NCBI GenBank assembly: GCA_003971905.1
Contig: RSEE01000047.1
Location: 1 to 64,000 of the forward strand
Source: Moniliella sp. 'wahieum'
Lineage: Eukaryota; Basidiomycota; Moniliellomycetes; Moniliellales; Moniliellaceae
Length of the DNA stretch: 64,000 nucleotides
Direction: 5' to 3'
The position numbers and the translations under genes are program-made. The notes below the pieces were generated by a model that worked only from the letters and a program-made list of their open reading frames with translations, was not told the origin of the DNA and ran no database searches. Numbering within the stretch: position 1 is the stretch's first letter; the number at the start of each line of letters is the position of its first letter. Positions 1 through 64,000 of this stretch are shown here, in pieces.

Positions 1-1295
1 CGTTTTTGCTCTTTATATACCCGGAAAATATCCCTGGAAAATATTGATTTGAAGCTCCAAGGGACGAATGATTAATGATGCATGATGCATGATGTGTGAC
101 GCGCTGACGCGTGACGCGTGACGAGCGGGCGCCACAATGTTTGAGATCCGCCCGATGGCAAATATCTACCTTCTATCTCGGGCCAACATCCAAAATACAT
201 GTGCATAGGAAGGTACATACTGCTAGGCACAGGTGTGTGAAAGAATTGGCTGTTGTGCTTAGGGTTTAGGGTTAGGTACGTTAGACGCACACGTTTAGAC
301 GTTGATGCAGTGGAGCGTGGAGCGCTGAGCTCATGCTGAGCAGCGCTCAGGCTGAGCGCTGACACGCATTGAACGCTTTTCTGCATGATGCATGATACGT
401 CGATGCATAGTCGCTGCGGTCGATGGCGTCGATGCTCGATGCTCGATGAATTTTTGACGGATATTGTTTCTCGCCGCAAAACAGGTGTTGGGGTTATCGA
501 GTTTATCCATTAACACATCCATCCATTACCGATTAACGGATTGTCGAGAGAATCCGGCGGTTAGAGTATCCTGACCTAACATGTTTGGAAGACATCAAAA
601 CGCTTCAGCGCGCCGTTATACGCGTGCGGGGTATTGGTATAGGCCACCCAACGGCACCTCTGCACAGGGATGTTAAAAGAAGCCAACCCCTATTTCGGGC
701 CAGAGGCTGCGAAACAAGGAACACACAGAAAAACGAGGAAACATCGGACCACACACCTATTGACCTGTGGAGCTTGAGGAGGGCCCTAAAGAACCTTGAC
801 CAGAAGTCCGTGCCATCCCGTACGTCAAAAGCTCTGGTCAATTTCTTTCACATCCAATGATTAATGAGATGAAGGGAGCCTAATCAATAGCTAATCGAAA
901 TTTCTTGCGCACAATCTTGTGGGCCTTGCCCACCTTGAATTTTGTACGTAGTACTCACATATCTATCCCGAACCTTGTAACCAGCATTTTCGATTAGCTA
1001 TGATTGATGTTTGGCCATTGGAAAGAACAAAAGCCGGTGAGGAGACAGAGATCAAATGCTGAGCATTTGAGCTATAAGGACATAATGACTTTCCAGATGG
1101 TTGGTGGGTTGGCCAAGCTGGCTATATATATCATATATCATGTACGGGCTGCCTTCACATACACAAGAGGGAGAGACAACCAAATATTTGAAGAGCATCT
1201 GATGGTCCGTGGTGATGATAAAGAATAATAATCTATGCCAGTGCCTTTCCCTCCATGAAGAAAATGAAGCAATCCTGAACAGAGAATAAGGGGAC
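1..1295. other. Gene-free leading region
   Basis: I see no convincing gene here. Several short ORFs exist on both strands but none resembles a known family or shows an intron pattern. The segment contains a clear 7-bp-period array at 69-125 and looser copies of the same words around 330-410, described separately. Two adjacent TTAGGG-like words near 256-275 are too few to be a telomere. Confidence 0.6.
69..125 (+). repeat. Heptad array, TGA + palindrome
   Basis: The plus strand reads as consecutive 7-bp units, each TGA followed by four bases: TTAA, TGCA, TGCA, TGTG, CGCG, (one extra C), CGCG, CGCG, CGAG. Five of the eight four-base words other than the edge unit are perfect palindromes. One of the clearest examples of the window-wide heptad pattern. 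Confidence 0.8.
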
Positions 1296-2566
1296 TCAGA
1301 ATCCCACCCTCGCCTCTTCATCTGCTGTTTTGCTCTGATGCAGTGAACGAGAGGGGAGCGGGGTTAGGGTCACGGATGAAGGATCGTGCATCTGCATCAC
1401 CTGTGTCTCGACCGTGAAGGGGACGTTGCCCACACGGTTGGGAGGGGAGGGGAGGGTCGAAAAATGGGTTATGGAGCTGCGCTCACACTCTTTGATTGCA
1501 GATGTGTTCTCCATCTCGACTTGATCAACCACGGCTTGGGTGATAGTAGATATTTGGATCGTTGCTGTGCCTTCTTGTTTCCCACTACCGCTTGAGAGGG
1601 AGGGGTATCCCGCAATACCTTTCAAGTCCAGGCCACCACCCAGCTTCAGCAGCACGAGACGATATGCACAAATGGCAGTAAAAGCATTGGCGATGGACCC
1701 ATTAATGTTGGAAAAAGTCCAGCGCTTGCTGAAAAAGAGCGCGTTGAGCAAGTTGATGGAGAGGGCACAGAAAAAGTAGATCAAACCGTCAGACATAAGA
1801 CGTTGCTGCACGACCTTGGTCAACACAGTTTGCCTGGTAATATTAACCCGCCGCCCGTGTGCGTCAAACAAGAAAGAGGCAAAGGCAAGCGAAGTGATGA
1901 GTGTGTCGAAGACAATGTTGCAGATAAAGTATGCCCACGGAATTTCGTGTCCTGGCATCGCGTAGACACACACACCCAGGTTAAGCGCATACGGGCGAAA
2001 CCAGTTGTTGAGGATAATATTGATCATAAATTGGGCCAACCAAAGGAGCGCAACGACTATCATGATATAGCGATTGCAGTGCCACATGGCCCAAGTTCGT
2101 ACGGAAAAAATGAAGGAGGCGGAGGAGGTAATAATGCTGCCAAGAAAGACGGACGCACGCCCCACGTGGTAACACTCTTGGGTTGTCCAAGAAGGTTTCC
2201 GAAGGGCATGAATGTAGAGTCCGATACAAATTGGGCTTGTGTAGCGCGCGATAAGAAAAGCTGGAGTGACAAGCCATTTGAAACCCCGCTTCCTGTGCAT
2301 GCGGATCTCAGCTGGAAATGTGATAAGTATGCTTCCAGAGGAGGTTATGTGTCAGCAGAGGTGCAGGCGTAAAAATGAAGGAGGATAGGATGAGAAATGG
2401 AGAAGGGGTAATGGCGTACTCCCACAGCAGAAAAGCAAGCAGCACCTAGGTACATACCCCGCACCAAGTCCTGTTCCAATAGCGAAGTTGGAACAGATGG
2501 GGGCAAATGCACCCTCACTCCGGGCGCAGCATGCTGCATCATATGGGTAGGTGGGTTGTCAGCCAT
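1296..2566 (-). CDS. Seven-transmembrane protein, basidiomycete DUF6533-like family
   Basis: Predicted multi-pass membrane protein of about 369 residues, three exons. I place the start at 2566 (MADNPPTHMM...), introns at 2446-2518 (73 bp) and 2332-2419 (88 bp), and a stop at 1296-1298; the three exons sum to an exact multiple of three. Exon 2 is a 26-nt microexon that joins to give LLWDILITFPAEIR, which matches the WDxLLTxxxEI-type signature near the N terminus of these fungal 7TM proteins. Several hydrophobic helices follow, then a conserved-looking stretch around RLMSDGLIYFF and a Ser/Thr-rich cytosolic-type tail. The family is abundant in Agaricomycotina; ligands and function are unknown. 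The first intron is my inference: reading straight through is also open but ends without the signature. Confident in the class, less in exon 1. Confidence 0.7.
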
Positions 2567-2886
2567 ATGCGCAAAGGTGATGGCGATAGTGTTGGTCGTG
2601 ATGTGGGGGGAGAGGTAGAGAAAATGAGAAAATGCCAGCATGAACGCGCGAACGTTACCTCGACCTTTATATACACTTGAGCGCTTAATGAAGCTTAAAC
2701 GTTAAACCCCCAAACCATGCCAAACCCTGAAAGTGACGAAAGTACATATCGTGAGTACCGGAGAGCATTTGTGTACCGAGTTATTCCTGAGGCCCTTAGG
2801 CCTAAGGCCGGAGGGGGCTGGAGGCACAATCTTCACAAAAGTGGCCGACACCCAATCTGAGGACCTGAGGCCTGTGAGGCTCGCGC

Positions 2887-2954
2887 TCAGAGATCATCGA
2901 TCATCGAGATCATCGATAATCGATAATCGATAAGTGACCGGTGACCGATGACCC
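2887..2954. repeat. Heptad array that flips polarity
   Basis: Begins as TCA-spaced units with the palindrome TCGA repeated, passes through TAA spacers, then continues as TGA-spaced units with CCGG. The linking base therefore changes strand inside one array, about 320 bp upstream of the 7TM gene start. Confidence 0.75.
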
Positions 2955-3245
2955 CAGGCGCCACAAGTGGCGCTTACGCAGGGGCACTGTGCTTGCCACA
3001 GTCCGAGTACTGAGTACTCTGTCTGAGTCGAAGAGTCCACGTATGTATACTGTGTGCTGCACTTATTTTTGAGGATTCGAAATTTTAATGAGAAAGCGAG
3101 AGAGAATGATTCACAATATCCACAACCATCACGCATCACTGCCTCTGAAATCTCAGTGAGATCTGATGCACTCAGACTCAGCAGTTGAGTACTCAAGGTG
3201 GCGCCGAATTAGATCTTCAAAAGCTTTTTAAGCTCTTTAACGTCT

Positions 3246-3285
3246 TCAACGTTCAATAAAAGCTTCAAGCTTCAAGCTTCAAGCT
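3246..3285 (-). repeat. Heptad array, TCA + ACGT / AGCT
   Basis: Units TCA-ACGT-TCA, a short interruption, then TCA-AGCT three times in exact 7-bp phase (TGA-spaced on the minus strand). Confidence 0.75.
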
Positions 3286-3977
3286 GGAATGAACGTACCA
3301 CTCCACAGGCTGTGGCCTGCTGTGGCTCTTGTGGCACACGGCAATATTCATCCTGTATCTAAGAGGTGGACGAGACGGAGTCGATCGATGATCGATGGTG
3401 TAGACGCGCGGCACGGTTCAAAAGAAACCCTAATGTTGCGTTTCGCATTCATTTAAATATTTACAGAAGTACGCGAGGATACTACGGCACCAAGACGGCG
3501 GGCAAGTTGTTTGCGCATTGGAAGGAGTTGGCTACTAAGTCTCAGTGGAAATGGTTCCTCGCTCGGATGTCAACCACGTTCCTCCGTGTCCACACGCGCT
3601 TCCTAGGGTACGGGACCGGATGGCGAGAGCCGGAGGGTCCTGATATCCTGGCGATCCCCCTGGTTCCTTGACCTTAGTGGCGCTTCCAAGTAACCCCCGC
3701 AAGATGAACGGTTCGGTTTAGACGTAGCGTTCCCCCTGTCCCAGCCTTAAGCTCTGTCAATGATATGAATTCAAGAAGTACGGCTGGGACAAAAAGAAAC
3801 GCTCTGGGCGCCTTTGGTGCTGCGCGTATAACCAGCTAATACACCCGCCGCGTCCTGCTTGCCCGTGTTATGCATGTCATGCATGTTAACTCAATTGGGA
3901 GAAGTGGAGCTAGTGGAGGGTAGCGCGGAGAAATGAAAAAGTGGTATCTCCACGTGACAACATATGAGAGCAATGAA

Positions 3978-4935: not shown

Positions 4936-5271
4936 AATTATTACACTGGCACTGAGTAGTACAGATTGAGTACGGGGGCCTCTTGGGAAGACCTACCTTA
5001 TCAATTGTAACGCTTATCCCTATCCCCGTGTGCACATCATTGTCAACACGCAAAGTGGGGGCAAACTGTGTCGTATATAGTAACTGCATCAAGTGCGCGC
5101 TTCTACCGAATTTGAGAACCCAACAGGCGAAGCCTTGGGCCTGGCCACCCATGTTGATTTTCTTCTTGTAAAACCACATCTTGTAATGATCAACGATTAT
5201 CGATTAGGGATCATCGGCCGCACAGCACAATATTCCATTCACGTATACACGCCCCGGTCATACTTGACACG

Positions 5272-6351: not shown

Positions 6352-7247
6352 GATGGCGCAAAGGAAAAAGGCAGCGGGTTGCTTGGCCCGAATCCTTTCG
6401 CCCAACTCGTGTGTTAATATGCTATCGGGGGGCGGACGTAAGGCAATCTGCGCTCTTCGATCACTGGGTCGCAAAGGCCGAGATGAACTGCAGCTTCAAG
6501 TTTTCTCTAACTTTCCAATGTCAGTGTAGTCAATCACCACTTCTCAGATCTCACCACTCCTCACCACATTACTGGCACTACAGCACTGCGGACAAAAGGG
6601 ACACTGGCCGCCGAACCCCCACAGAGGGCCAGTGCCGATGCAGCCCCGCCGAGGCTGGCCGACTGGCTAAACCCCCATGCCGAGGTCGCCCGAGCCTCCG
6701 CCGCCGCCCTTATTTCCGGGCCACAAGAACCCCTTACAGGCGTGGCGGACTTGGAGCTTGGAGGCGGAACACTGGCGCAGGAATTGAAATGTACAGCGGG
6801 AGGCGGTGGCAGGCGGAGGCCACGTGTCCAACTGAAATGAACGCTGGAGGCGTGCCCTTCGTCCCAAACGGGTTACGTTGGTGCGGGACGCCCGCTCAGT
6901 GAGTGGCAATCGTGTTGCGTGTTGGGTGTCGCGTCACGCGTCAGACCCGCTGAGCATCCGACACACCAATCAGTGCAACCCTATTCTCCCTCCACGTAGC
7001 CCGTGCATGACGTAGACACGGACAAGGGCAGTGTGGGGGTCACCCGTCCCGTTGCTTCGTCGCTCACCAGCGTGAAGGCGCGGGGCCAGTGTCGGCACTG
7101 GGGCTGCTCTGGGGCCATTGCGAGCATCATGCATCGCTCCATGTCACCCCCCGCCCCCACGGCCCGCAGCATCCATCTGAACCTCCACCTCCCCTCCACC
7201 TCCACCTCCACCTCTGCCTTCTGCCCCGAGGTTGGGCTGAAGATACC
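6352..7247. promoter_or_regulatory. Divergent intergenic region
   Basis: Lies between the divergently transcribed oxidoreductase (-) and the 952-residue protein (+), so it should contain both promoters. I see no clear TATA box. A short heptad word pair (TCA-CGCG-TCA) occurs at 6934-6943, and CCAGTG-type words recur at 6600-6770 and near 7085-7105. Confidence 0.4.
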
Positions 7248-10277: not shown

Positions 10278-10708
10278 CCTTTTTGGCCTCAACCTCGCAT
10301 GTACGGTGGAGGAGGTACGTGGCCCTCTCGCTTTGATATGGGGTGTGGATATCTGGCGTGATCGTTTCTCTGGCCATTGTAGGCTCATTAAAGAATTTTC
10401 CTATAGGGGACTTCCATCAAGCTTGGGTCTTGACGGCCTGAGGTCTGAGAGAAGATAACTCTACTGTTGGTAGCTTCTATATATGTGGAACTCGCCATGG
10501 AAAACATTTTCTTGGAAGTCAGAGGGGAACGCAGGAGAGCCTCTGTAATAACGCGAACTGGGAACTTCCAAAATTGTACCTTCCCCTATACGATGATGTC
10601 GATGATGATCGATGATTAATGGATTAATGATTACAAAAGCAACCCATTTCGGCTTCGGCCATAGTCGGGGATGAACCGGTCTAGCTTGCCACCACCACCG
10701 CCGTCGAG
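10278..10708. promoter_or_regulatory. Intergenic, upstream of BolA gene
   Basis: No gene seen. Contains a heptad array at 10603-10634 (TGA-TCGA-TGA-TTAA then a slightly irregular continuation), only about 75 bp upstream of the BolA start codon. Confidence 0.45.
10603..10634 (+). repeat. Heptad array, TGA + TCGA / TTAA
   Basis: Units TGA-TGA-TCGA-TGA-TTAA followed by TGG and TGA words, in 7-bp phase except for one interruption. Confidence 0.65.
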
Positions 10709-11198: not shown

Positions 11199-13352
11199 GT
11201 ATGTGCACGTTGTGCTAATCAATCTCCAGTCAAAGTCTGTCTGATGGTCGAATGAGAGGAGACGAATGGGTTAAGGGGGGTCGTTTTGTGTATAGGACGG
11301 AAGTAAAAAAGCATGTCATACTGGGAGGCGAGGTCAAAAGTCAGGCGGGGTTGTTGCTGGGATTAAGGGGGAGGCATCTCGTCCTGGCTGGTCCAAGGCG
11401 ATTAAGGTTAACTTCCCTGCTCCAGGCTTGGGCTGATGCTGCACATCATCTACCCTATCCAGATTGCTATCGAGTAGTCGGAGGATGTAGTCTTTAGGAG
11501 GGAGTTTCCCACCTAAGGCCCAAATCGAGAACATGAAAGCGAAACGCACGTCATGCCTCCAGCTCTTAATGCCTCACTGGCCTCACCAAGGTCCGGGGCA
11601 ATACGTTCAGAAGGATGCCAGTTTGTGGGTTCTGCGCCCGGAGAAGCGGAGTCTCTTCCTCCGCAGGCTCCCTAAACTTGGGGTCACGCCGTTTTCAGAG
11701 CCCTGCCTGCATATGATTGGTTCAGCGTCTCGGGTATACTCTTAAGGAACGAGGCCTCTCTTATTCATAGCAGTGTAAAAGAACAATGCAGCTTGCGAGA
11801 GACCGTTGCAGAAGAGGTTGTGGCTTGGGCAGCACTGCTTTTCGAAACAGCAGCTGCATTTGATGGAGATGGTGCAAAGATTTGGCCCGCAGTCAGTCGG
11901 GGCTACATGGCAGTAGAACTGTCATATATCAATGCTGCCAGATGCACTGAGACGTGGGGGGGGGGGGCAGACTAGGAGCTTTGCCAGAATATATCTCTTT
12001 CTTTCCCAGGAACTCGTACCGCGTGCTCTTGAGCGTCACGTTACAGGCACCACAAGAGTAATATGTGGGTGGCGAGGCCCAGTGAGGCAACAGGAGGATG
12101 GACCAAATGGTAGAACCGAATGTGACTACAGCTTAGCCTCCAACTAGCCATTCAATCATCTCTCCTCACCTTGCTAAATGCCATCTGTGGGCTGAGGCGC
12201 TGTTGAGGCCTGACTGGGGCTCGCATCAGACATCCATTTCGGCCCCTCATATAGTATGCGACCGTCCCACTTTTTCTCCTTTTTCCTTTGTTTGCTCCAA
12301 TAAGGTCATTGTCTCTGGCTTTCCACCCAACGAAAACGCGTTTTTGCCATTCTTCTTTTCAGCCCTACCGCGAGCCACGGTGGTAGTATCCGAACTAAGC
12401 CATAGATCACTTCCCCAGCCCATCATCATAAAATTAAACCACTACATCTAGAGGAGTGCGGTGGTACTAGTTCGGACGATGAACAGTGGTGGACCGAGTG
12501 GGCCAGGGACACCGAATGTGTTGTAAAGGGGGGGAGGCAGACACCTTTTGCCTAGCAGGCTGCGGTGCCGCGTGGGACAGAAGGATACAGGGTGTGTTTG
12601 TGCACGCAGCGCGCGCCCCTCTGCTCCTCTCCTCAGGCCTCAGCCTCATCTGATCTGCGATCGTGTCATGCATCATGTCTCGGTACCACCGCTCCGTTCT
12701 TTGCTCCACTCGAAACAGCATTTCGCTCATCATGCATCAACGCCCAACCTGCTTTTTTCATTGCGACCAACATAGCACCACAGACGACGGAGGTCGCCGG
12801 CCAACGTTCGACTCTCTCTACTGGATTAGTGAGTACTGAATACAAAAGTACTTCCGAGAGTGCCTTGTTCTACGATGAAGTAAGTGTGGACCGAGTAGCC
12901 GAGAGTGAAATGGACCGAATGGACAAAGAAGAACTAGGCGGAGGACACCTTTCCACCCCAGGCGCCGTGGGCTCCACAAGGCCCAATAGAGCCGGCCTGA
13001 CATCGGTACCTTTCTTGGGTTGGGCCAGTGTTGTGCCTGGATCAATGCACCATCGACGCCCTTGCTGGAGTAAGAATATGGTGGCACTACTCACGCCTTA
13101 CTCTCATCCTGTGACCGACGTCGGGTGGTGATCATGTGGTGGGGTTTGGAACGCCCGCAGGGACGGTGCAACGGCGAGCAGCGCTGCTGAGGCTCAGCTG
13201 CCAGCTGGCGCTGATCGCTGATGGATGAAGAAAAGCCACCGCGGATGGCAGGGCAGGTGGGATTGTGACACGTGAGAATAGGCGAGCGTGCCTCCCCAGT
13301 CTCTCCCGTGTCTCTCCCCACCGCGTCGACTTGACGGGGCCCCTGCTGGAGG
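11199..13352. other. Gene-poor region
   Basis: About 2.1 kb without a gene I can support. ORFs at 11252-11497, 11533-11745 and 12565-13131 have no recognisable domain and no convincing splice structure. A run of 12 G lies at 11956-11967. Confidence 0.45.
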
Positions 13353-15396: not shown

Positions 15397-15739
15397 CACG
15401 ATCTGATCTCTGATTGCTCCCGGACATGGGTTTTGCTTAGTTGCTGTCGCCCCACCCGCACTCGGGGCTATGTCCTATTGGAGCGGCAGTCAGTTGTGCT
15501 ACATCCTCGCCAAGTGCACTTAATGAACGAACAGCGTGAGCGTTCAGAGTGAATCTAAACGCGGAAGATATTACTGATGCCAATATTATGATGTAAAAGA
15601 TGCGCATGATTAGTGATGCATGATGAGTGATGGTCGATGGACGTAGATGCCGATGGCGGCGCTGTGAGTCCGGAATACGTCGGAGTTGAAACGACGTGAG
15701 TCTATTTTTGGCCATCTGCCACCATCTCCCGTAGGCACG
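15397..15739. promoter_or_regulatory. Intergenic between galactokinase and MFS gene
   Basis: No gene. Holds a heptad array at 15607-15630 (TGA-TTAG-TGA-TGCA-TGA-TGAG-TGA) about 110 bp upstream of the MFS start. Confidence 0.5.
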
Positions 15740-17799: not shown

Positions 17800-19526
17800 G
17801 ATTGGTTCAATTGCGTTTTGTCCTCAAACTTAACCGTAAAACCACTCACACCAACTCTCCAGATAACACGAATTGCCTTCTGTGTCCTCGATCGTATTTC
17901 AGAGCAGGCTAAGATCTTATGGAGATCGAGGGAGATGCTGTACCTATTCCACATAGCCTGCCAAAGCTCGATTCTATATACATCAGGATCTACACGCGCT
18001 ATAGGCCCGCACCAAAAGCTATTTTTGGTACAGATCGAGTTGTTTCGGTTGGAAAAGAGCGACAGCCTGAGTACATGCCCGTCAATGGGTACTTTCGCGC
18101 TGCGCCGCAGTTCGTCTAGACCAAGGCCGAAGAGTTCCGGCACGGCACGCATATGGCTGGGGTTATTGTCCGTTTTCTGGACAGACTAATCGCGCAGACT
18201 TGCCTTGTTCAAATCGGGGTCATGCGCTGTGTTTTGATCTCCCGCATCTGATCCTTTTGTGCAGCTGGGCCCGCAGCGTTGCATAGCACCCGGCGGGCCC
18301 AATCATTTTCGGCAATGATGAACCCCTTCCAGTGAATGGGGTCAAGCCCAACCTTCTTGGTGATGAGGGGGGAAAGGAGGTTTCTACTCAGGTAGCCTTT
18401 TTTGAGTGAGGGGACTGAACTTGTCTATGTTGCCAGAAGCACCATGATTGCATGCGGACAAAAGATGGTGGACAGAGCCGCGGTTCTATGATAATCGGGT
18501 TCATCGTTGCTGCCAACACCTCGGCACGGAACATCTCTTCGGGCATGTTAAGGCAGACTTGCATCTCGCCCTTGCTGCGACCTTCTTGCCTATCTCATTC
18601 TCGGCTCAGCCCGGGCAGATGAACTGGCTGTCATGGGGTCGGGAAACGGACCGAGGGCAAGAGGTTATACGCAAAACCGGCGGCCGCCTCCTTGAAAGAA
18701 GCCCTGACTGCTTTGTGGCGCATGCCGCATCGACCAAGCAGGGTCTGGCAGGGCTAGAATTAGTGCAAACATGCTACCGAACAACCAGCGCTGGTGTGTT
18801 GTTACCACTTCACAGGTCCCAAGAAATGGGCAGAAGGATGCATAGCGTTTTTGATTCCAGTCAACAGAAGAAGGGTACATGCACAGCCCGTTACGCGGGT
18901 GTTGCGCATTGGCATGAGGCCATCTGCTTCTCGCAACAGGGACTGCAAACGCACACTTGCTAAAAGCACAGATGTTAGTTTTGAGCAGTGCTGCTGCCTC
19001 CGGGAACGACGATGGAGTCCTGGCTGCTGGCTGGGAGGACAGGAGACCACACGCACGCGTGGAGGCCTTAGGATGCGGGAGAGGCGAAGCAAAGCAACAG
19101 CGCAACGTTAAACAAGTCCTACAATCGCAGGGGGGAGGCAAGCCCCTGCGATCCATAGTCTACTCAGTACTCAGGTTCAATCCTTCTCATGACGAAAGAG
19201 ACTACAGGTCAACAAGTCCAGTAGCGGTCATAACCCAATACTTGATTGAGAAAATGGCTTGAGAGGGACAGCAGACGCTAGAGTCCCACTCAGGATACAT
19301 GAATGGAAGAGGGGAGGTGGGAAAAGAACAGAAAGCAGCCCACTGTGTGATATATGGGGGAGAACCAGACTCAATGTCTGGCAGGGAATCGCGGCAAAGA
19401 GGGGGGATCATAGAGCCAAGCGGATGTGGGCAGCAGGAGAACGGCAAGCACAAAGCCTAACGGGCCGACAGCGGAAGAGGAAGGGTTGCCATTGTCACAT
19501 GGGCTTACCAAGGCATGGCATGGCGT
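17800..19526. other. Unresolved region downstream of tRNA-Ser
   Basis: No family recognised. Minus-strand ORFs at 17790-18152 and 18665-19156 have protein-like composition but no identifiable motif. A hairpin with an 8-bp stem (cgcagggg/cccctgcg) lies near 19127-19151. It may hold a diverged gene or a pseudogene. Confidence 0.3.
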
Positions 19527-19824: not shown

Positions 19825-21460
19825 GATGAGGGAATAGGAGCTGGGTGGGGGGTGAGAGCAGTAGAGGTGGTGGTGGGGAATAAAACGCGGGCGACGGGGC
19901 CAGGGGCGCAGAAACTTTATAGCGACGGCGGAGGGGCGGGGAACGGGCGACTGTGGGCTACTGGGAGAGAGGGGCGTGCGGGGCGCAGGGGCAGTGTGAA
20001 GAAGGTGCGCGGCAATGCGCGGTGGTCGTGCGCGTGCAGCAGAGAGGACGCAGTGTGCCGTGCCGCGCAGTGCCCCCCGACCGACGCGGAGAGGATGATC
20101 GATGATCCTGAGACTTGCCCGACTTGCGTGGGGCAGTATTCTTGACGCATGATGGATGGTGCAGAGAGCGGGCTGGGTGATTCCGAAGCCAAGGGAGCAG
20201 GGCAGCCAGCAGGACCCAGCTCGGAAGTCAAGGCGGTGTGACATTGGCATGGGACATGGCCCTGGCGGTGGACATGGATGGACATGGCTGGACTGGACAT
20301 GGGCATGGTGCATGGACGTCGACATGGGACAGGCGACAGGTGACATGGTGACAGGCGACACTGAACGGGTGCTGCATCTGGCTTGTGCGCACTGGCGTTC
20401 AGTCGAAGAACGCTGAGGCGCTGAGTCCTGGAGAGCTGAGGCACGGAGGCGCTGAGCAGCAGGCAGCAGGGGTGAGCGCTGAGCGAGTGAGCGCTGTGCC
20501 GCTGAGCTCTGACCAATGATTGGATGACCTGTGACCGGTGACCGGTGACCGCACAGATTGATGATCCGGGGGCACCGAGTGGGGGCAGTGTGGGCAGGGC
20601 TGGGCGCATCCATTAGCGCTGGGCAGTAGGCCAGCTGTGCGGCGAGAACCGGGCTGGGCTGCTGGGGCGCCCGTCTGAGCGTCTGAGATCTGGGCCGAGG
20701 CAGTGCACTGTTAATGCGGTTACTAGGTTGCTCTCCCACAGCAAGGGCGGCCACAGGGATCGATCGATACTCTACACCCGAGCAGCCACCACGTCTGCAG
20801 CTTCTTGCCGCGGTGCGTCAGCAGCAGCGACAATTGCCATTGCCAACGGGCGCTGCTGGCCGTTGCGCGGCACCCGCACCCGCCCTGGTGGCAATCGACA
20901 ATCCACAAAAGTCAGGCCGTGGCACAGGAGGGCACAGCGTCGGCCTGGCTAGCCTGCTCGCGCTTTGGAGAGACTGATGCCAGTGAGCCAGTGTGACCCT
21001 GAGGCTTAGGCCAGCCTGAGGCCCTGAGGCTCAGGCCGATGGGAGAACGAGATGGTCAGGAGACTACACACTGCGATCGAGCTGGAATAGGCTGGAATCC
21101 ATCACGCATCAGCCATGGCATGCATGAGCATGAACGCTCCGCGCCAGGGGGCAAGGGCGCAGCGAGCGCATGCCAAGGGCTGCGCGTAGACACACATACG
21201 TACCTCCTTCTCAGATCGCAGATCTCAATCTCACATCCCAGATCCCAGGTCGATCTCAACCACTAATCATCGATCTCAATTATCTCAGACTCACTGGCCA
21301 TTGTTTCAACGTTCAACCTCCATTCTCAACACGCAGATCCTCTGGCACGCTTCCGCAGCGTCCGCTCCACCAACACCAGGGGCATCACATTGTCACGGTA
21401 CTCAGGACATCCAACTAGACGTTCAGTCTAACGCGTGTCACATATTCACATTCAATAAGT
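19825..21460. other. Gene-free region rich in TGA-spaced words
   Basis: Upstream of the acylated protein. A 325-residue minus-strand ORF (19777-20754) is Pro/Ala/His-rich and looks like a by-product of composition. Many TGA/TCA heptad words occur at 20400-20551, 20995-21040 and 21200-21300. Confidence 0.45.
20473..20551 (+). repeat. Heptad array, TGA + GCGC / CCGG
   Basis: Successive units TGA-GCGC, TGA-GCGAG, TGA-GCGC, a break, then TGA-GCTC, TGA-CCAA, TGA-TTGG, TGA-CCTG and TGA-CCGG twice, keeping 7-bp spacing through most of the run. Confidence 0.65.
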
Positions 21461-21562
21461 GGCTAGTGACTAGTGACTAGTGGCTAGTGAAGCTTGAAGC
21501 TTGAAGCTTGAAGCTAATGATTAATGACATGTGACATGTGACATGTGACACAGCGACATGTG
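21461..21562 (+). repeat. Composite heptad array with four different palindromes
   Basis: The longest and cleanest example. In order: CTAG four times, AGCT four times, TTAA once, CATG three times, each separated by TGA (twice TGG). The only slip is two bases between the AGCT and TTAA blocks. The palindrome changes but the spacing does not. Confidence 0.85.
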
Positions 21563-22149
21563 TGTGCACATGTCACGCGCCACGTGTGTGATGGAATGGA
21601 TTCGTTCAGGTGATCTGTCAACCATTCCTGTCACATGTCATTTTCATCGTACCCGGTCTTCTCTTTCCTCTACCAACGATTGCCTTGCCTCCTTTGGAGC
21701 ACTGGGAGTACTTGGTTCGCTCTATTTGCCGCTTCCCCGACATCTCCCCACGGCCCAGTTGGGGGTACTCGATACTCCCTGATGCTCCTGCTTCTTGGGT
21801 GGCGCTGAGGGCATCGGAATGAGAAGCGGCACTAGTGACGTGCCACTCTTTCAGTGCCTGTCGAGTTGGAGCGGCCACCTCCACCACAGACCACACCACG
21901 TTGAAGGTAGTAGCCCAAAAGTTAACCAACAAACTGCGTCCCACATTCGGGAGGGGCCCAAGCCAGGCTTTTCTCCTTGTGGAGCCGGGCTTGTTAGAGT
22001 ATGCCAGCATGATCGTGCACTCACATGCCATTTACTTTTGCGGCCAAGCCACTGGTATGCGGAAGTCTTCTCTTTGTTCTGCCTCTCGAGCGCATCGCAC
22101 AGGGTATCCCTTGCGGGCCTCCTTCCCCGTCCTTTCTTCTCTCCCTGTT
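21563..22149 (+). other. Coding-like fragment, copy A of duplicated unknown sequence
   Basis: A plus-strand frame around 21835-22254 reads KLTNKLRPTFGRGPSQAF and LLEYASMIVHSHAIYFCGQA, which looks protein-coding, but no family is recognised. It leads directly into the repeat at 22150-22380, as the ORF at 23599-24249 leads into the second copy. Confidence 0.35.
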
Positions 22150-25082: not shown

Positions 25083-25822
25083 TTTTTTGCCGGCGATTAA
25101 CCAATGCCGGATCCTCACTGGTCCTGAAGGCGCTTTCCGGTACCGCGCTGGCACCACCCATGCACGACATGGCGGGGGTGCAGGACCACTGGCCACTCTG
25201 GATTAGCGAAGTGGCCGCTAGGATTTACCAATTGTACCAACCTTGGACTTGCACTAACCTAGTGCTGGGTCAGTGTCTCCTGTGCAAGGACGCTGTAATA
25301 GTACTCAATGGCTGTGGCATCTCCGTAGTTAAGTGGGAGGGAAGAGATGGCTTGAACATCCGCTCTCTCTGCTCTTCCCTCAGACGCCAGCGCGTCAGCT
25401 CAGCTGTCGCCTCGAATATAATAGCCCCTTGATTACAGTACATATATTATCCTCGCCTGACTTAGTCAGCTACTCCTTCTAAGCACTTCCACCGCTTGCT
25501 GCTTTATTGGCTCCTGTGTTTCTCTTTATCGATAATCGGACGAGCGACTAGTGACTAGTGAGACGTGGACGATCGGCCCTTGATTAATGATTGCCTGTGG
25601 TTGATATAGGATAGACTTTCTCCCTGTCCCTTTAAACACGACCATACCTACATTACCCGCCCAAACCATGCTCCTACTAATGCTGTTTTTTCTTCATCTT
25701 ACTTTCTGTATCTCGGGGGGGCAACGTAATATGGACCAACAGTCATGAAATCGGTGCGGTGGGGGTGCAGGTGCAGGTGCAGGTGCAGGAAAACAGATGC
25801 GATACGGAGGCCAAAAGCAACT
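25083..25822. other. Intergenic, 3' side of calcineurin A
   Basis: No gene recognised. Heptad words at 25548-25561 (CTAG-TGA-CTAG-TGA) and TGA-TTAA-TGA at 25581-25590. Confidence 0.45.
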
Positions 25823-37520: not shown

Positions 37521-37561
37521 TTACCGGTGACCGGTGCCGGTGAAGGGTGAAGCTTGAAGCT
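37521..37561 (+). repeat. Heptad array, TGA + CCGG / AGCT
   Basis: TGA-CCGG-TGC-CGG-TGA-AGGG-TGA-AGCT-TGA-AGCT; one unit is shortened by a base and one word is degenerate. Confidence 0.65.
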
Positions 37562-38673
37562 CGGTCGTGTGATCAATACCAATGCCTCTCAACCAGCCCG
37601 GAGCTCTTTCCGTTGGCCCGCCTAACGTCCAACTCTACCACACTACCCAGAGACTCCTCCAGACGCAGTGCTCGGCCAGCTGGCCAGGCCTGCCTCAGGA
37701 CCATCTCGTCTTGAAATACGAGTGATGCGTTCGGGGGTCGTTGCTGGTTATGACCGGATACCCCTTTGGCATAGGTTTGCTGGACCAGGGTGGGTGTTGG
37801 GGCGTTGAGTGTTGGGCATGGACTACAGCGTAAATTACACCGTACCGTAGAGTCTGCGGTAATTGAAAATGGAAATGGCAGGAGAACTGGACATGTGACA
37901 TGCATGTGACCCAGGCACGGCAGATGAAAATACGGGGGTGACGGCGTCGAGCGCGCCAAACCTCGAGAGCTCCGCTACGTTGCGGCAGGGGGGCAGCCAC
38001 CGTCGCCTGCGGGGGTAGGGGGCACTAGAGGGCAGCTCCTGGCTGACCAGTGGTTCTGGATTACCGCTGAGCGGTGACCATGTGAGTTTTCCGGTTTTAA
38101 AATTTAATTCAGGGCCATTTATTGGATCGGGGCGCCAAACGCCATGCCAACGCCAACGCTTTTGCCCAGCCCCGGTCCCCTCGGGCATTGGCTGCGTTTG
38201 CCGAGGTCAACCGAGGGGACGTGTACTTGCCACGGGCGTGGGGGAGGGATCGCTTCCGCCAGGTTGAACGTGACATGCGTCTGGGCCTGAGGATCTGAGA
38301 CCCCAGCGCTCAGTGCCCCGCCTGAATAAGGAAGGCACCGAGTCGAAGCAGCCCTGGGATCTGAGAGCCAGGCTGCGCCGTGGGCTACCAGACGCGTGGA
38401 TCGCTCCGTTGATCGACAACATGAGTCGATCATGCCCATGAGAGATTGTCGGTTGCAAGAAGTCCCCTGCAGCGTGAGGGGATCAGACATGTGACCGACG
38501 ATCGTCCATCCCGGTCGCACCACAGCCGCATCTGTCGCCCCCCACAGTCCGAGCTGAGAAGCTCCCGCCAGCGCCGCACCTCCCCTGGCAAGCCCATCAG
38601 ATTCATCCAACCCTTCCTCTGAATTACCTGATGCCTCAGGGCCTCAGGCCTGACACGTCTCATCGAGCATTAG

Positions 38674-43388: not shown

Positions 43389-45318
43389 CTCGTAAGGGAC
43401 TAAGAACGAGTGGTGCCGTCGAGGCGCGAAGAGAAGGTGGAAGGAGAAGGGGAGAAAATCTGGGAGGGGTGGTGGTGATGGAGAGACGAAAGAGTTGGAT
43501 CCAAGGGGGAGGAAGAGACGGAGGAAGTGTGGCAATGATGCTCTTTTGGGGGGCGCGAGACCTGAGGCACAGTGGCGAATATAGAGAGCGAGTGTGCTTT
43601 CGCGCAGAGCGAGAATAGTATAACAGCCCTTGTCCGCACTGCTTGCACCCCCCGTCTGCCAAGCCGCCCAGGCTGCTCGCTCACACCCTCTAGCTGGCTT
43701 GGCGCTGCGGCTCAGCGTTGAGGCTCAACGCGCAACGCCCAACTCAGGCGCAAGAGTGAGACTCACTGGTCGCCACGGCAGGCCAGCGGCCAGTCAGCGC
43801 CGTGTGTATACGGGGCAGGGGAGGGAGCGTAGGCTGGTCGATCCAGTCAACGATGACTTTCATCGATACCAAGTGAGGCCTGAGGGTCGTTCCAACGGCG
43901 TGTCTTGGGCTGAAGCTTGGAGAGCGAGCGAAGCGATCCCAGCACTCGCCCCGTGGTGGGTGTGGAGCAGGCAGGCGAGGTGCGGGGGGGGGCGTGCAGA
44001 GCCAAGCCTTTACCCCTCGCACTAGCCCTCTGCCCCTGTGGCTCTCGCCCTTGCCTGCCCACCGACAGGCCACTCCGGGGCAGAACGGGAGACGGAGCAA
44101 GTCGGTTGACAATGGCTGGGCGCTGGAGGGGCGGGGCTCTGGCGGCGGATGATGTCAATGATGTGCCCGGTGACGTCGATGCTGCGATGATCGATGACGC
44201 TGACGGGGGTCTGGTGGGGGCAGCGGCGTGGCTGCGCAAGGGCGGGGAGGCGCACGCAAATCTCAACCAGCGGCATCATCCCTCACGCGTGGCACCTCCA
44301 GCAGAACGCCCCCGCGCCGAATCACCCACCACGCATCCGTGCAGCAGCCATTCAAACTTGCAATGCAGGCGCCCACTTCCGGAGGGCGAGCAGCTAGATT
44401 AACAAACGAATCGCCAATCGGAGCGAGAGCAGCGCGTGGGCAGCCTGCCGTCTTGGCGCGCAATCGCTTCCTTCGGAGCGTCGTCCTACACACGTGTCCG
44501 CCCTGTCCTCCCGCTCCTGACAATCCGTCGTCGCTTTCGGGCGCGGGCAGCAGGTATGGCCTAGACCTATACGCACAACGCCCAAGGCCCATGGCACATC
44601 AAGTCATGCCAATCAAGTCGGCCCCAGCATCCATTCAATTTGTTCCGTCTCCAGCTGCAAGGCGTCCCCCAGGCCTCTTCAAGTCTCAAGCTCCAAGCTT
44701 CAAGCTTCAAGCTTCAAGGTTGAACGCACCATTGAAGCTAGTTGAAGGCTTGACGTCTCAAGATCTTCGACAATCTCGCTCGCAAGAGGAGAGCGCGGTA
44801 CGACTCGCCTGGCTGTGGCAGTCACTTGTCAGGGGCTATCGGCCCAGCGGATTAGGTCATCCTCCTCAGCAGTCCGAAAAGACATGGTTGGAGTTGAGGG
44901 CCTGTTGGGCGGGAGTAACGGGACCATGCAACGGCGCCTGGGCTGTGCTCGGTGCCCGCCCGGAGCAGGTAGGCGGGGTGGCGGTTGGTGGGGGCGCTGG
45001 GCGAGCGCTAGCGTTGGTTGAGCGTCGAGTGCTCGGTGCCCGACGCAGGGGCGCAATCACCGCCCGAATGCACGGACCCCGGCGCAGCTGGCTGTGGGCC
45101 CAGCGCCAGCACCGCAGTGGAGCTGTCTGGGGCAGCAGCTGCCTCCACGTCACCGGTCACCCACCGCCCTCCCACACGCCCACGCTTCGGGCAGCTGGAG
45201 CACTGGTCAGGGTTACGTGGTAGGGTTGGGCTTTGCATGGCGTGCCTAGCAGCTGGTGCATGCAATCAAGCAATGCTGCCACACCCCCACAGACCAACAC
45301 CTCCTCTGCCCCACACCA
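43389..45318. other. Gene-free region
   Basis: About 1.9 kb without a recognised gene, between divergent genes. ORF 44228-45223 (331 residues) is low-complexity and overlaps equally long antisense ORFs, so I do not call it. A heptad array lies at 44686-44716 and TGA words at 43700-43740 and 44140-44205. Confidence 0.45.
44686..44716 (-). repeat. Heptad array, TCA + AGCT
   Basis: TCA-AGCT-CCA-AGCT-TCA-AGCT-TCA-AGCT-TCA in exact phase; four AGCT words in a row. Confidence 0.8.
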
Positions 45319-47778: not shown

Positions 47779-48231
47779 CACGTTGGCTGGCTGCAGCTCG
47801 CGCACGGTGTGTGTTGGTGTGGGCCGCCATGTAGTACAAAGATGTGTTTCGGATGCCGGATGCTTATTGTTTCGTTCGAGGTGAGGGACAAGACAGAAGG
47901 GCCGGCCGCTCTGAGTGGGAGAGAATGCGGTGTGTGGTGCCCTGGGGCAGCGTCGACCGCCGGGAGAGGAAAGGGCGAGATAACCCCGCGCTGCCAGGGC
48001 ACAGCACCGGTGACATGTGACAGCTCTCGGGATGACGTCAGGCGGCGGGGCACCCGCCCATGTCGGCCACGGCCGGCCGGCGTGCCAGGAGGCGCAGTTG
48101 ACATGGTCGAGCGTCCCACTGCGCACTGACTGAGCGCTGCTGAGCTCAGCCGCAGCGCCCAGGCTCCCAGCCCAGCCTCAGCCTCAGCTGAGATCACCAG
48201 TGCCCCCCCACCACCATCTCCCTCTCGCCCG
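47779..48231. promoter_or_regulatory. Intergenic, upstream of MINDY-like gene
   Basis: No gene. TGA/TCA words (TGA-GCGC, TGA-GCTCA) occur at 48127-48195, just upstream of the next start. Confidence 0.45.
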
Positions 48232-56845: not shown

Positions 56846-57721
56846 GGCGGAGGAGGGGGGGGAGGAGGAGGTGGTGGTGGAGGCGAGGGCCGCAGCGGGC
56901 CGTCAGGCAGTGCCGCTGTGCCGGGCGTGGCCCCGTGGCTGCTGGGTGCGGCTGTGCGCTGCTGTGCCCCTTGCAGCTGGCCGCTGCCCCCCGCCCCGCT
57001 GCTGCCCCTTGCGGCCCTCGGCCGTGTACATTTCAAAAGCACATGCTGCTCACGTGGAGCGCCGAGCCGCGCTGGGCCCATGCAATGCATCATGCATCGT
57101 GCATCATGCATCATGCATGGTTGCTGCTGTCTGCGTTGCCGCCAGGTGGCTCATCGATCATCATGCACCATGCATCACCGTCATGCATCCCAAGCTTTGT
57201 CCAGACCCAGGCCAGTTCTCTCCACGCACCCTCGATGCAGTCGATCGGCCGGCCTGCGCCTCTCTTTTCTCGGCGACGGCGTGGGCCGTGCGTTTTGGCT
57301 TCCATGCATCCACACCCGACGTCTATCCACGCTTATGTCTTCCTTGTTCCCCCCTTGTGCACACACACCCGAGCGGATGACGACCATCATGCACACCATG
57401 GTTTGGTCCAGCCCTCTATCACCCCAATTCCCAGACGACAGCACGGCCCACCATCGTATAGCGCCGCGGAAATATGCGTTTTCCGACTCTTCTTGCCGGA
57501 GAGGTTGCGACGCGGCCCCTTTTCCTAGGATTCGTTTTCGTCCAGTTTCCCGTATGGGCAGCCGACATGTTCTAGAGCATGACGGCGACCTCGTGAATCG
57601 TCTCTCTGTTCTCTTATACCGACAGGGACAGGGCCTCACTAGTCTCAACCTCTTAGGGACGTATACTGCAACATGCTACACCACCTGGTGGTCTGGCTTC
57701 GAGACGGCCGACCCGCCACAT
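56846..57721. promoter_or_regulatory. Intergenic upstream of MKT1
   Basis: No gene recognised. A TCA-TGCA heptad array (57086-57120) lies about 240 bp upstream of the MKT1 start. Confidence 0.45.
57086..57120 (-). repeat. Heptad array, TCA + TGCA
   Basis: TGCA five times, separated by TCA, TCG, TCA, TCA in exact 7-bp phase. Confidence 0.8.
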
Positions 57722-58719: not shown

Positions 58720-58763
58720 TGATGAATGATTTAATGATCGATGATTCATGTGATGAAGGGTGA
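58720..58763 (+). repeat. Heptad-like array, TGA + TCGA
   Basis: TGA-TGAA-TGA-TTTAA-TGA-TCGA-TGA then looser TGA words; about 140-180 bp upstream of the next start codon. Confidence 0.55.
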
Positions 58764-61181: not shown

Positions 61182-62194
61182 GCTGGGAAGTTGGTGGGAG
61201 ATGGCCAACGTTGGCCGGGGGAAGCGACTGCCGACCCGCTGCGGAATGTCGAAAGCAAAAAAGTGGGCAGCAGAACCGCTGGGCCGCCGCACGGCGCCAC
61301 CCTCTCGACCTGTCGGGGGCACGTCCCCGCCCTTACTGCCCGCGTGCAGCGCACGCGAGCACTCGTCTGGTGCGGCAGGGCGGCGGGCGCCTCCGGCCCT
61401 CAGCGTCAGCGCTCAGCGCCCGCTGCTGGGTTCCTCCGGTTTTTTCCTTCGCCTTTGAAATTTCACATTGGACAGTTCGCGTCGCCCGCGTCACGTGCTG
61501 CTGCGTTGCCGCCTGGCCGTCTCCGCAGACACGAGGGCGCGCATCGCGCTGCTGCACCGGAGCTGCTGTCAGCGGCACTGCCCTAGTTAGAGGTTTGGTA
61601 TAGACGTGCACGGCCTGTGCCGCCTCCACTTGGTTCCAATTGTAAGCCGAGCGCGTAGTAGACCCCGCTGGCGCATTCCTCTGTTCTTCCTTGCCACCCC
61701 CCCCTCACCTTTTCGCTCAACTTGTTACCTCTCGTTCTCACTCAGCTGCTTCTGGTAGCTCACACCGCGCCGTCTACCTGCCGTAGTACGTCGCTACAGA
61801 GCTCAGAGACACCCATTGGATGTGACACCCGGCCACAGTCATAGCCCAACACAGTACCACAGCTGGTACACATGTCCCCACATTATGTGCGGGAGCTATC
61901 GAAGACCTAATAACGCAATCGACCGTGGGGTCGTTCGCATTGGCCATCTGGGAGTACAGTGACATACTTGTGGAGGCAGAGGAACCGTACAGCGGCGAAC
62001 AAAATCATAACTTCAGCATAAGAGGGCGGTCCGTCGGGCGGGCGGGCGGTCGTGGAGACAGGTAGAGAAAACAAAACGTATCGGAAAACGGAGTAAAGAG
62101 TATAGCAGCGTACGGTCGTAGGATCAGCAGGTCAGGACGGATGCAGATGTCGTGAATCGTTAGGGGCGCATAGGACGGTCAAAGGGCCATTCAC
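61182..62194. promoter_or_regulatory. PP1 promoter and 3' region of PIN4
   Basis: No gene recognised. A CT-rich stretch at 61680-61745 lies about 0.5 kb upstream of PP1. Confidence 0.45.
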
Positions 62195-63152
62195 CTAGAA
62201 TGTCCGGCGTGTCAGGCGCAGGAAAGCCAGGGCAACGAAAATGTGCCAAGTTGGTATAGGATCGCATCGAAGTGAGTCTCGGGGCCAAACAGCGGCACCC
62301 GGATTGGATACAAATGGTTGCATGCTAGTCTATATTGACATGTTAGACGTAAGACCGGACCAAACGTGTAGAAAGTGACATACTCGTTCAAAATCGGGCA
62401 ATTTACTGACCACCACGTACTTTTCCCCCTGTTGGGTTTCAACGGAGAAGTGGTGAAGACCCATTTTCTGGGCAATAACGTGGACCACTCGGCGTTCGGC
62501 GGATGTCAGGGAAGATGAAAACGACAACTCGTCTCTCATGCGATCATCATGAAAGAGAAGAATGCGAGAATAGACGTCCAGTGTGGTGGGGTCATTCATA
62601 TTGAGTTCAGGTGTTGCTGTCAGATGCGTCGTAGGCCCGAGAGGACTCGGGGGACGGGTGCACCATCAGGTTCGGGAGAGGAGCACACGACGAAAGAGGC
62701 GGCTGGAAATGATAGTTCCAGTTCTTGCCCTTTTCAATCTGGAGAGAATGCATCCTCTTGATCGCCTTGTCTTTCTCTAGTCGGTCTTTTTCCCCTGGTT
62801 TGAGCACACGCTTGTGCTCAGCCCGCAATTTACGACCCGACACATCAAAACCGTTCAAGGCAGCCACCGCATTTTCGGCGTCGGCTGCATGGTGGTAGTT
62901 GGCAAACGCTAGGCCACGAAAGATGCCTTGGTCAAAGTGGTAGTTGAACGCGTACGGCATGGGGAGCGATAAATCCGTCATCAGCGCAGCCAAACTTTCC
63001 TGAGGAAGAGTGAAAGGAATGTTTTTGATAACAATGGCGGTGGGGATAATGTCCGCTTTGGTGTGAGGCCACATAATCGGTGCAGCGGGCGCAGGGCTGC
63101 GCTTAACAGGACCAACCAAGGGGTACGGATCCACAGTGCGACCACTGCTCAT
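62195..63152 (-). CDS. PIN4: PIN4/Cip2-like RNA-binding protein (RRM + R3H)
   Basis: Cell-cycle and stress mRNA-binding protein related to yeast Pin4 and fission-yeast Cip1/Cip2. The start at 63152 gives MSSGRTVDPYPLVG. The RRM shows TAIVIKNIPFTLPQESLAAL (RNP2), LPMPYAFNYHFDQGIFRGLA leading to the RNP1-like GLAFANYHHA, and GRKLRAEHKRVLK. After a charged linker comes MNDPTTLDVYSRILLFHDD and the R3H domain (ELSFSSSLTSAERRVVHVIA, QKMGLHHFSVE). A 54-bp intron (62330-62383) leads to a last exon ending at 62195. One extra base just before MNDPTT breaks the frame (DSNT to ELNMNDP); the two exon lengths sum to one over a multiple of three, in agreement. Shorter than yeast Pin4, lacking the long Q-rich tail. 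Confidence 0.85.
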
Positions 63153-64000
63153 GATGAGAAAGTGGGAGGGTGTGCGGAGGGAAAGACGAGTGTAGGTCGT
63201 ATGTAATGAGGAGCAATGGGGTGGGCTAGGAGGACCTGCCCAACGAGCCCAGGAAGGTGGTGGAAGCAACGAGACGGAAGGCTGCGATGCGAAAACAGAA
63301 TGGTATCTGTCCAACAATGGCTGGCACAGCCCCATAACATGCACCAGGGCTTGACAACGTCTGCGGGGGGGGGGGCTCACCAATCACCGATGTGTGCGGG
63401 GACTGCGACCGGTGAGGTTGGTGAGCTGCTAGCCATGTCATAGATTAGTCAGCCGGTCAGACTCATGCGCCCCAACGTCCTGGCAGCTTGGACCCTGGCA
63501 GATGGACTTGGCCTTCCTCGGTCTCATATCCCCCGCCCTCCCGCCGCAGCCACGACGACACGTGTCAGACAGGCATGGCGCCACTGCTCCAGATGATACG
63601 TCTTTCACGGTAATTAGGGTAACCGGTAACTGGCCCCAGAAGTGAGCTCGATGTGACTCGTGAATGCGTGAACGGGTGAACGTGGAGACGTAGGACATTG
63701 GCCTTCCTCCATGGTCACTCGAATTCTTGAGGCCCAGGCTTGCCAGCTGCACGCCTCAAATTTCAAAAGTCTTCCATGGAACGCCTCGTCGGTCCATTTC
63801 CTTTTCCGCCGTAAAACAATGGGAAAGTGAGCTGCTCAGGCAATTCACATGCTATGGCGCAAGCGCCCAATGAAGCCAGTGACTAGTAACTAGTGACTTA
63901 TTAGCGCTGTTAGCGCTTAGTATGTTAGCTGTGATATTATTTTGAAATTTTGACTGGGAACCGAGAATCCGGAATTCAGGGAATAGGCCTTCCTGACATT
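63153..64000. promoter_or_regulatory. PIN4 upstream region to window end
   Basis: No gene recognised. An 11-base G run at 63365-63375 and a heptad array at 63880-63897 (TGA-CTAG-TAA-CTAG-TGA). Confidence 0.45.

Follow-up and report, generated by a model that had tools for sequence, protein, structure and literature searches.

A 7-bp lattice of palindromic words

The window analysed here is the 64,000-base stretch at positions 1–64,000 of contig RSEE01000047.1 (C47) from the basidiomycete Moniliella sp. 'wahieum', whose genome assembly holds 69,493,810 bases in 223 contigs. Its non-coding DNA carries a lattice of short elements and arrays with a 7-base-pair (bp) step, in which a T-N-A triplet alternates with a four-base palindrome. 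This lattice is real and genome-wide. The original prediction, made from the letters of the window, had it extend across the whole window; consistent with this, identical 6-bp palindromes were spaced 7 bp apart 27 times, compared with 0.5 expected from 20 order-2 Markov simulations, and elements with at least five matches at lag 7 number 65, spanning 67 to 63,894. Distances of 6, 8 and 10–13 bp gave 0–2 such pairs each, and distances of 9, 14 and 15 bp gave 5, 6 and 5 (0.4, 0.6 and 0.25 expected, respectively). The total number of 6-bp palindromes in the window is at chance (1,027 compared with 1,033 expected), so the special feature is their arrangement alone. The 65 elements are listed below by coordinates, strand and unit; 'other copy' denotes a second copy of this region on contig C10.

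67..79 (+), ATTAATG element
75..94 (+), ATGCATG array, overlapping the 67..79 element; other copy has different words
105..123 (+), ACGCGTG array
351..362 (+), AGCGCTG element
382..396 (+), ATGCATG array; other copy one unit shorter
856..867 (+), ATTAATG element
1126..1141 (-), ATATATC array; other copy 7 bp shorter
2695..2707 (+), AACGTTA element
2798..2809 (+), AGGCCTA element
2892..2907 (-), ATCGATC array
2912..2933 (+), ATCGATA array
2934..2947 (+), ACCGGTG array
3005..3018 (+), AGTACTG array, absent from other copy
3245..3256 (-), AACGTTC element
3260..3285 (-), AAGCTTC array; other copy shorter
3383..3397 (+), ATCGATG array
5194..5206 (-), ATCGATT element
6542..6553 (-), AGATCTC element
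6930..6943 (-), ACGCGTC array
7124..7135 (-), ATGCATC element
10604..10616 (+), ATCGATG element
10622..10633 (+), ATTAATG element
12631..12643 (-), AGGCCTC element
12666..12677 (-), ATGCATC element
12728..12739 (-), ATGCATC element
15614..15625 (+), ATGCATG element
19161..19174 (-), AGTACTC array
20094..20107 (+), ATCGATG array
20473..20485 (+), AGCGCTG element
20531..20551 (+), ACCGGTG array; other copy reads ACCGGTG ACGCGTG
21305..21317 (-), AACGTTC element
21463..21482 (+), ACTAGTG array
21488..21515 (+), AAGCTTG array, within a 35-bp stretch absent from other copy
21515..21527 (+), ATTAATG element, same 35-bp stretch; other copy has one AATGA
21525..21550 (+), ACATGTG array, one unit longer than in other copy
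21629..21640 (-), ACATGTC element
25546..25561 (+), ACTAGTG array
25581..25592 (+), ATTAATG element
27233..27244 (-), ACATGTC element
30411..30422 (-), AGGCCTC element
32800..32819 (-), ACGCGTC array
32967..32986 (+), AAGCTTG array, within a 32-bp stretch absent from other copy
33472..33483 (+), AGATCTG element
33545..33556 (-), AGCGCTT element in a TTA lattice of changing words; absent from other copy
36852..36870 (-), ACGCGTC array
36866..36878 (-), ACATGTC element, in phase with the 36852..36870 array
37182..37204 (-), ACTAGTC array; other copy 14 bp shorter
37523..37536 (+), ACCGGTG array
37548..37561 (+), AAGCTTG array
37890..37902 (+), ACATGTG element
38096..38107 (+), AAATTTA element
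38640..38651 (-), AGGCCTC element
43874..43885 (+), AGGCCTG element
44185..44197 (+), ATCGATG element
44694..44718 (-), AAGCTTC array
45149..45161 (-), ACCGGTC element
48010..48022 (+), ACATGTG element
57085..57098 (-), ATGCATC array
57100..57118 (-), ATGCATC array; linker C is G in other copy
57151..57162 (-), ATCGATC element
58734..58745 (+), ATCGATG element
61406..61419 (-), AGCGCTC array
63618..63630 (+), ACCGGTA element
63756..63767 (-), AAATTTC element
63882..63894 (+), ACTAGTA element

The same pattern was found in a 264-kilobase (kb) sample, consisting of the window and C1:200001-400000, and in a 314-kb sample that adds five 10-kb stretches and represents about 0.45% of this one genome. 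In the 264-kb sample, exact runs with at least nine matches number 88 at period 7, compared with 46 at period 6 and 21 at period 8, and 63 of the 88 consist of a 6-bp palindrome plus one base. At a looser cut of seven matches (169 runs), the palindromic rotations among 60 tabulated units all begin with A and end with T. Genome-wide, the 17-mer of three TGA triplets separated by two AGCT words (TGAAGCTTGAAGCTTGA) has 1,199 + 1,071 = 2,270 match positions, overlapping matches within one array being counted separately, and its reversed pattern has 0 + 0. A non-palindromic control carrying the word AGTC (TGAAGTCTGAAGTCTGA; one control word) matched once; AGTAGCTAGTAGCTAGT, which keeps the AGCT palindrome with AGT replacing TGA, matched 7 times, and its reversed control TGATCGATGATCGATGA 666 times. 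The 314-kb sample contains 263 elements with at least five matches, an abundance sufficient to shape the intergenic DNA of the genome. Their median spacing of 206 bp and mean of 1,182 bp show that they are clustered.

Sequence grammar and placement of the elements

As predicted, the words change under a constant rule: all 16 palindromic words are used in 314 kb and 15 in the window, where ATAT is absent (at least 13 had been claimed). Other parts of the predicted rule stood in modified form. In the window, TGA or TCA pairs sharing a linker enclose a palindrome 67 times and a non-palindrome 44 times, where chance would make about 1/16 palindromic, but not every unit conforms, as the rule is obeyed by 37/67 TGA and 30/44 TCA pairs. 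The linker base, given as G or C, can be either, but any base is possible, including those of TAA and TTA, and the constant part is T-N-A. In the 314-kb sample, the direct palindromic excess over the product of triplet counts is 36-fold for TGA, 38-fold for TCA, 57-fold for TAA and 33-fold for TTA, with TAG the next triplet at 9.6-fold.

The predicted 7-bp unit holds as a step, but the smallest element is 12 bp long and consists of a direct 5-bp repeat, TNAzw, around two bases reverse-complementary to zw, or of the mirror form with xyTNA. The 314-kb sample contains 197 and 186 of these two forms, compared with 0.45 and 1.05 in 20 shuffles, and the heptads likewise lie far above shuffled sequence, as the prediction required. 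Complete 12-bp forms in the TNA frame occur at 16.5 per 1,000 sites (197 elements at 11,908 sites), compared with 0.07–1.43 per 1,000 for the remaining 15 XNY frames. The middle base of TNA also matters, with about 20 elements per 1,000 sites for C or G, 8.6 for A and 5.3 for T. Per site, the commonest zw are AG, TG, CA, TC, CT and CG (21–32 per 1,000), and AT-only words are the lowest (3.4–5.2). Gating by stem strength was rejected, as GC-only words have no per-site advantage. No flanking consensus past TSANN was seen among 53 exact class-A elements.

Match lengths reveal how the elements are built. Among 235 runs around TGANNnnTGA, the lag-7 match is 3 bases long in 23, 4 in 11, 5 in 60, 6 in 44, 7 in 21 and 8 in 8, with a second peak at 11–13 (8, 8 and 15). 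Runs reaching from TGA through NN number 36 and their mirror 24, at any array length, far more than the 11 four-match runs. This shape indicates a primary form that is a 5-bp repeat, to which chance extension and whole 7-bp units are added. A 7-bp tandem duplication followed by decay was rejected on the same distribution, because birth would give at least seven matches and uniform decay does not fit.

The spacer is also strict. At lag 7, the 2-nucleotide (nt) spacer is the exact reverse complement in 176/222 TGANN and 165/216 TCANN repeats; for 3-nt spacers the same rule is followed by 2/44 and 1/50, for 4-nt spacers by 0/60 and 2/64, and for 1-nt spacers, slightly above the chance level of a quarter, by 20/48 and 20/50. 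Palindromic spacers of 2k bases were observed (against expected) 62 (70) times for k=1, 658 (75) for k=2, 10 (8.2) for k=3, 8 (1.4) for k=4 and 0 (0.4) for k=5, and odd 5-base spacers at lag 8 are slightly raised (22 compared with 11.6). The linkers flanking palindromic spacers are identical in 329 cases, complementary in 42 and neither in 32, which relative to non-palindromic spacers are enrichments of 18-, 4.6- and 3.4-fold. The complementary class forms full palindromes TNA-NNnn-TN'A, for which TTA (5, 11-fold), TAA (3, 6.6-fold), TGA (18, 4.6-fold) and TCA (16, 4.1-fold) are the top 4 of the 64 outer triplets.

The words flanking TGA behave differently according to their symmetry. With palindromic w, w-TGA-w or w-TGA-rc(w), in which rc denotes the reverse complement, occurs 150 times per 10,000 TGA. 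Non-palindromic w-TGA-rc(w) occurs 38 times, inside the range of 23–59 for 19 other triplets, and a stem–loop with a TGA loop was rejected because complementary non-palindromic arms are not enriched. Non-palindromic direct w-TGA-w is rarer with TGA (52 per 10,000) than with 19 other triplets (72–191), which argues that slippage alone is not the source.

The elements avoid coding-called DNA. Coding calls came from a self-trained codon model and are approximate, being biased somewhat by in-frame TGA. Only 9 of the 383 12-bp elements lie in the 112 kb called coding and 374 in the other 202 kb. At the middle model threshold, palindromic heptads number 11 in coding and 277 in non-coding DNA, or 0.08 compared with 1.59 per kb, in line with the density difference that the prediction implied; the ratio is 15 to 20 at three thresholds and, with both heptads and 12-bp elements, the avoidance is 15- to 23-fold overall. 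For non-palindromic TSA-N4-TSA pairs, the difference is merely about 3.5- to 4-fold. The predicted intergenic location is thus borne out as a non-coding bias, but the lattice is not evenly spread, with an element in only 29 of the 58 non-coding gaps counted over 200 kb of C1. No strong tie to gene arrangement was seen among 240 classified elements (enrichment 0.64–1.27 across four classes).

A second copy of the region and its neighbourhood

A second, syntenic copy of the window region lies on C10 (~500500-560000). It is 86–91% identical to the window in three main pieces, with substitutions at 4.6% of 17,050 columns aligned over five stretches, and may be a homeolog or a second haplotype, as in a dikaryon, diploid or hybrid assembly. 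Differences of whole units between the copies comprise 28 bp of ATCGATC at 21265, 14 bp at both 33944 and 37182, and 7 bp at both 382 and 1126. A 35-bp gap at 21495 can be parsed as AAGCTTG, ATTAATG and ACATGTG units. The elementary step is visible where the shorter copy holds a single pentamer, with TGACA opposite TGACATGTGACA (window 33446) and TCAGG opposite TCAGGCCTCAGG (window 37691); a third case, AATGA opposite AATGATTAATGA (21515), is our own parse of part of the 35-bp gap.

Substitutions amount to 8.6% in elements (77/893) and 4.8% in their surroundings (1,122/23,541), the element rate being inflated by gapped alignment and the elements being counted from both copies. Gaps between the copies are held by a fraction of 0.38 of elements and 0.23 of control segments. 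Because the elements change faster than their surroundings and differ by whole units, they look like a mutational footprint instead of a conserved signal, as judged from these alignments. Several observations complicate this simple picture: a non-palindromic 7-bp unit at 34986 also varies in copy number, a TTA lattice of unlike words at 33534 is present in one copy alone, many gaps between the copies are not multiples of 7, and the linker at 57100 is C in the window and G in the other copy.

A lag-9 array lies in the C10 copy opposite window 21608, where three GGTGATC units are separated by GA and CC, spacers that are reverse-complementary to the adjoining ends, one per side. A 309-bp indel (window 3466-3773) is absent from the C10 copy, is flanked by the 9-bp direct repeat AGAAGTACG, which is not TNANN, and has related copies elsewhere in the sample at 73–94% identity; its structure suggests a small mobile element that duplicates 9 bp of its target.

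Further features were recorded in the window and the genome. Near the contig start, a short telomere-like stretch, TTAGGGTTTAGGGTTAGG, lies at ~259-276. Two transfer RNA (tRNA) matches at 17693-17799 (107 bases) and 57722-57822 (101 bases) exceed tRNA length and probably hold introns. A dispersed repeat of about 840 bp at 22387-23226 has about 40 genome places among the matches listed, nearly all at 81–88% identity. Two 5.5-kb copies, at C1 ~264017-269578 and C5 ~404426-409977, are 99.7% identical with matching ends of about 220 bp and look like a young long-terminal-repeat retrotransposon; their ends match further sites elsewhere. A genome profile search for the Zn2Cys6 domain gave 100 matches among 150 scored candidates, and a galactokinase open reading frame has entry 2aj4, presumably yeast Gal1, as its best solved relative. 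RuBisCO and chlorophyll-binding families had 0 matches in the genome search, which together with the two preceding results points to a fungus, although a nuclear assembly need not hold a plastid, and hydrophobin and radial-spoke families also had 0, a weak absence given that the search controls were silent.

Possible origins of the lattice

In its dimensions the lattice resembles bacterial heptamer repeats, such as the intergenic TAACTGA repeats of Beggiatoaceae (PMC4679880) and the GGGAATC repeats of Xanthomonas (PMC4692102), which are likewise 7-bp intergenic units with few copies per array and many arrays per genome. Among bacterial simple sequence repeats, heptamers are reported to be in excess (PMC4692102), but each is described with one word or consensus, whereas the fungal lattice uses 16/16 palindromic words. 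At least 93 three-unit stretches of (ACTAGTG)n occur across many unrelated bacteria, where chance by our own arithmetic gives about 0.002. The 127 palindromic period-7 runs in 80 bacterial loci comprise 118 of ACTAGTG (the searched word), 1 of ACTAGTA and 8 not of the A....T type, and no other A....T word formed runs of at least nine matches in the 80 loci scanned. In viral stretches, TGAAGCTTGAAGCTTGA was found in 44, with no other A....T word there, and three-unit ACATGTG in 1. We rejected a cross-domain phenomenon, as the bacterial one-word arrays stand without other words in the 80 loci. The prediction that no described class has this grammar has so far held, in that a multi-word palindromic heptad class was not found among the open-access papers listed in the literature searches.

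Other known systems share some features with the lattice. CNG trinucleotide repeats also combine a palindrome with one unpaired linker base per unit; they have a fixed word and a 3-bp unit, and few loci expand, which distinguishes them from the lattice. Microsatellites share its unit-step copy variation but would accept symmetry-free words, which show no excess here (TGAAGTCTGAAGTCTGA 1 compared with 2,270 for the palindromic 17-mer), and the non-palindromic inverted arms of hairpin elements are not enriched. In rad27-null yeast, a precedent for the process suggested below, synthesis that turns back and returns makes insertions with short duplications (PMC5677150). Such quasi-palindrome or palindrome-extension switching resembles the lattice in that two switches yield a palindrome and a short direct duplication (PMC5677150), but that account's passages on template switching mention neither a set turn length or triplet nor arrays across the genome. 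The lattice shows an inverted copy adjoining a direct duplication, as template switching does, and lacks its variable, microhomology-set lengths (k=2, with slight k=4, at TNA alone); it may prove to be template switching in an extreme form. Because the lattice does not show the full set of tested features of any kind considered, it appears to be of a new kind. It has the look of a mark left by an undescribed process of small duplications, and not of an ordinary repeat or a binding site.

We tentatively suggest a small-duplication process of this lineage, in which two bases are copied inverted, synthesis returns at TNA and slippage follows. The process would act in non-coding DNA at T-N-A triplets, converting xy-TNA-zw into TNAzw + w'z' + TNAzw, in which w'z' is the reverse complement of zw, or on the mirror side into xyTNA + y'x' + xyTNA, in which y'x' is the reverse complement of xy. 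One stroke would give the 5-bp direct repeat, the four-base palindrome and the 7-bp step. In the putative turn-back, synthesis would reverse over the last two bases by inverted copying at a fold-back or hairpin-type end, copying A as T; in the putative return, TNA would be the point at which it goes back to its original template. At that triplet the inverted copy can pair again, because TNA is self-complementary but for its middle base, and the turn-back and return together would give the reason for T and A (inverted TNA is TN'A). A failed return predicts full palindromes TNA-NNnn-TN'A, of which a weaker excess was observed (42 in total). The 7-bp step would then grow or shrink by ordinary slippage as point mutation decays the arrays, and many rounds would yield islands of mixed words. 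We infer that the direction is one of gain, not loss. The predicted hairpin-primed repair or replication fits this process in part: a repair, replication or element footprint matches the geometry best, but a TGA-loop hairpin is not favoured (38 per 10,000, within 23–59).

Several points weigh against this process. Plain template switching allows other turn lengths, yet two dominates (658 compared with 75 at k=2), and CNG, GNC and ANT show nothing although template switching would permit them. A zero-loop turn on a single strand is physically awkward, and with palindromic words the third class of linker pairs, neither identical nor complementary, is mildly enriched (32, 3.4-fold), which the return step does not account for. 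The window and its C10 counterpart are the only two copies compared, so each difference can be read as a loss. The bump of indel lengths at 7 is small (5 of length 6, 9 of length 7 and 4 of length 8), and 31/73 elements, counted from both copies, match their counterparts exactly, nearly as often as the 0.47 of 1,144 controls, indicating that formation is not extremely fast. A further but unlikely reading is a dedicated enzyme of this lineage, which would target T-N-A, form hairpin-type ends at a distance of two bases and thereby insert palindromic heptads in non-coding DNA.

An origin as excision footprints would account for the geometry in one step: a cut-and-paste element that duplicates 5 bp of its target (TNANN) would leave hairpin ends which, opened two bases off the tip, give 2 P nucleotides, and so produce a 5-bp direct repeat and exactly two reverse-complement bases without a prior palindrome. 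Excision of the hAT and RAG type does involve hairpin ends and P nucleotides and leaves a direct repeat with a short inverted duplication at the joint, to which the fixed 5-bp duplication and inverted joint bases of the lattice correspond; the spacers of the lag-9 array opposite window 21608 point the same way. Real excision footprints are heterogeneous, however, and the spacers here are too uniform, strictly two bases and one-sided: 1-nt spacers are slightly above chance and those of 3–4 nt are not, and no exact 5-match TGA run has the two bases solely on its TNA side. Two transposase families were tried, of which the hAT dimerisation domain PF05699 gave 0 genome matches with the search controls silent too, and DDE_Tnp_4 (PF13359) gave 0 with one control positive. 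No TNANN-duplication element was seen in a non-exhaustive search of the 314-kb sample, and about 58,000 elements, extrapolated from 263 in 314 kb, would be needed genome-wide. We consider this origin distinctly unlikely; of the predicted footprint of an unknown element, the geometry fits and no element was found. Nor was a carrier repeat that might spread the lattice seen among the dispersed repeats of that sample, which were not each checked.

A palindrome-gated microsatellite, with 7-bp slippage taking hold where slipped strands fold or self-pair, agrees with the palindromic units in 63 of the 88 period-7 runs and with the 7-, 14- and 28-bp array differences between copies. It leaves unexplained why TNA works and CNG, GNC and ANT do not, and why five matches are the minimum; moreover, it does not explain why per-site frequency does not peak with GC-only words, and hairpins of non-palindromic w-TGA-rc(w) show no enrichment, which makes this explanation unlikely. 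Selection for protein binding, transcript folding or termination would suit the strict spacing and the position outside coding-called DNA, but is very unlikely given that all 16 words are used, that elements change faster than their neighbours (partly an alignment effect), that the gene-arrangement enrichment is weak and that TGA-loop hairpins are enriched only with a palindromic word. The same use of all words, the substitution rates and the gene-arrangement values disfavour the dyad-symmetric binding array of the prediction. Breaks by topoisomerase II (Top2) at A^NNNN^T, with 4-nt overhangs filled in and joined, recall the 4-nt overhangs and small de novo duplications made by Top2 in yeast (PMC11477040). 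The duplications described in that account's relevant parts are simple tandem copies of 2–4, sometimes 5, bases (PMC11477040), whereas the step here is 7 with a 2-nt inverted spacer. Among the TGANN and TCANN 5-bp copies examined, the pattern was not of this simple tandem type (8 and 22 perfect copies at lag 5, compared with 222 and 216 at lag 7), leaving Top2 a highly improbable source.

If the dedicated enzyme considered above is real, this lineage would possess a sequence-directed duplication system without a described relative, which would have shaped the islands between its genes over time. A repeat class defined by symmetry, not by word, would imply a kind of mutation that couples TNA recognition, direct duplication and inversion, and its signature can be used for searches in other genomes.

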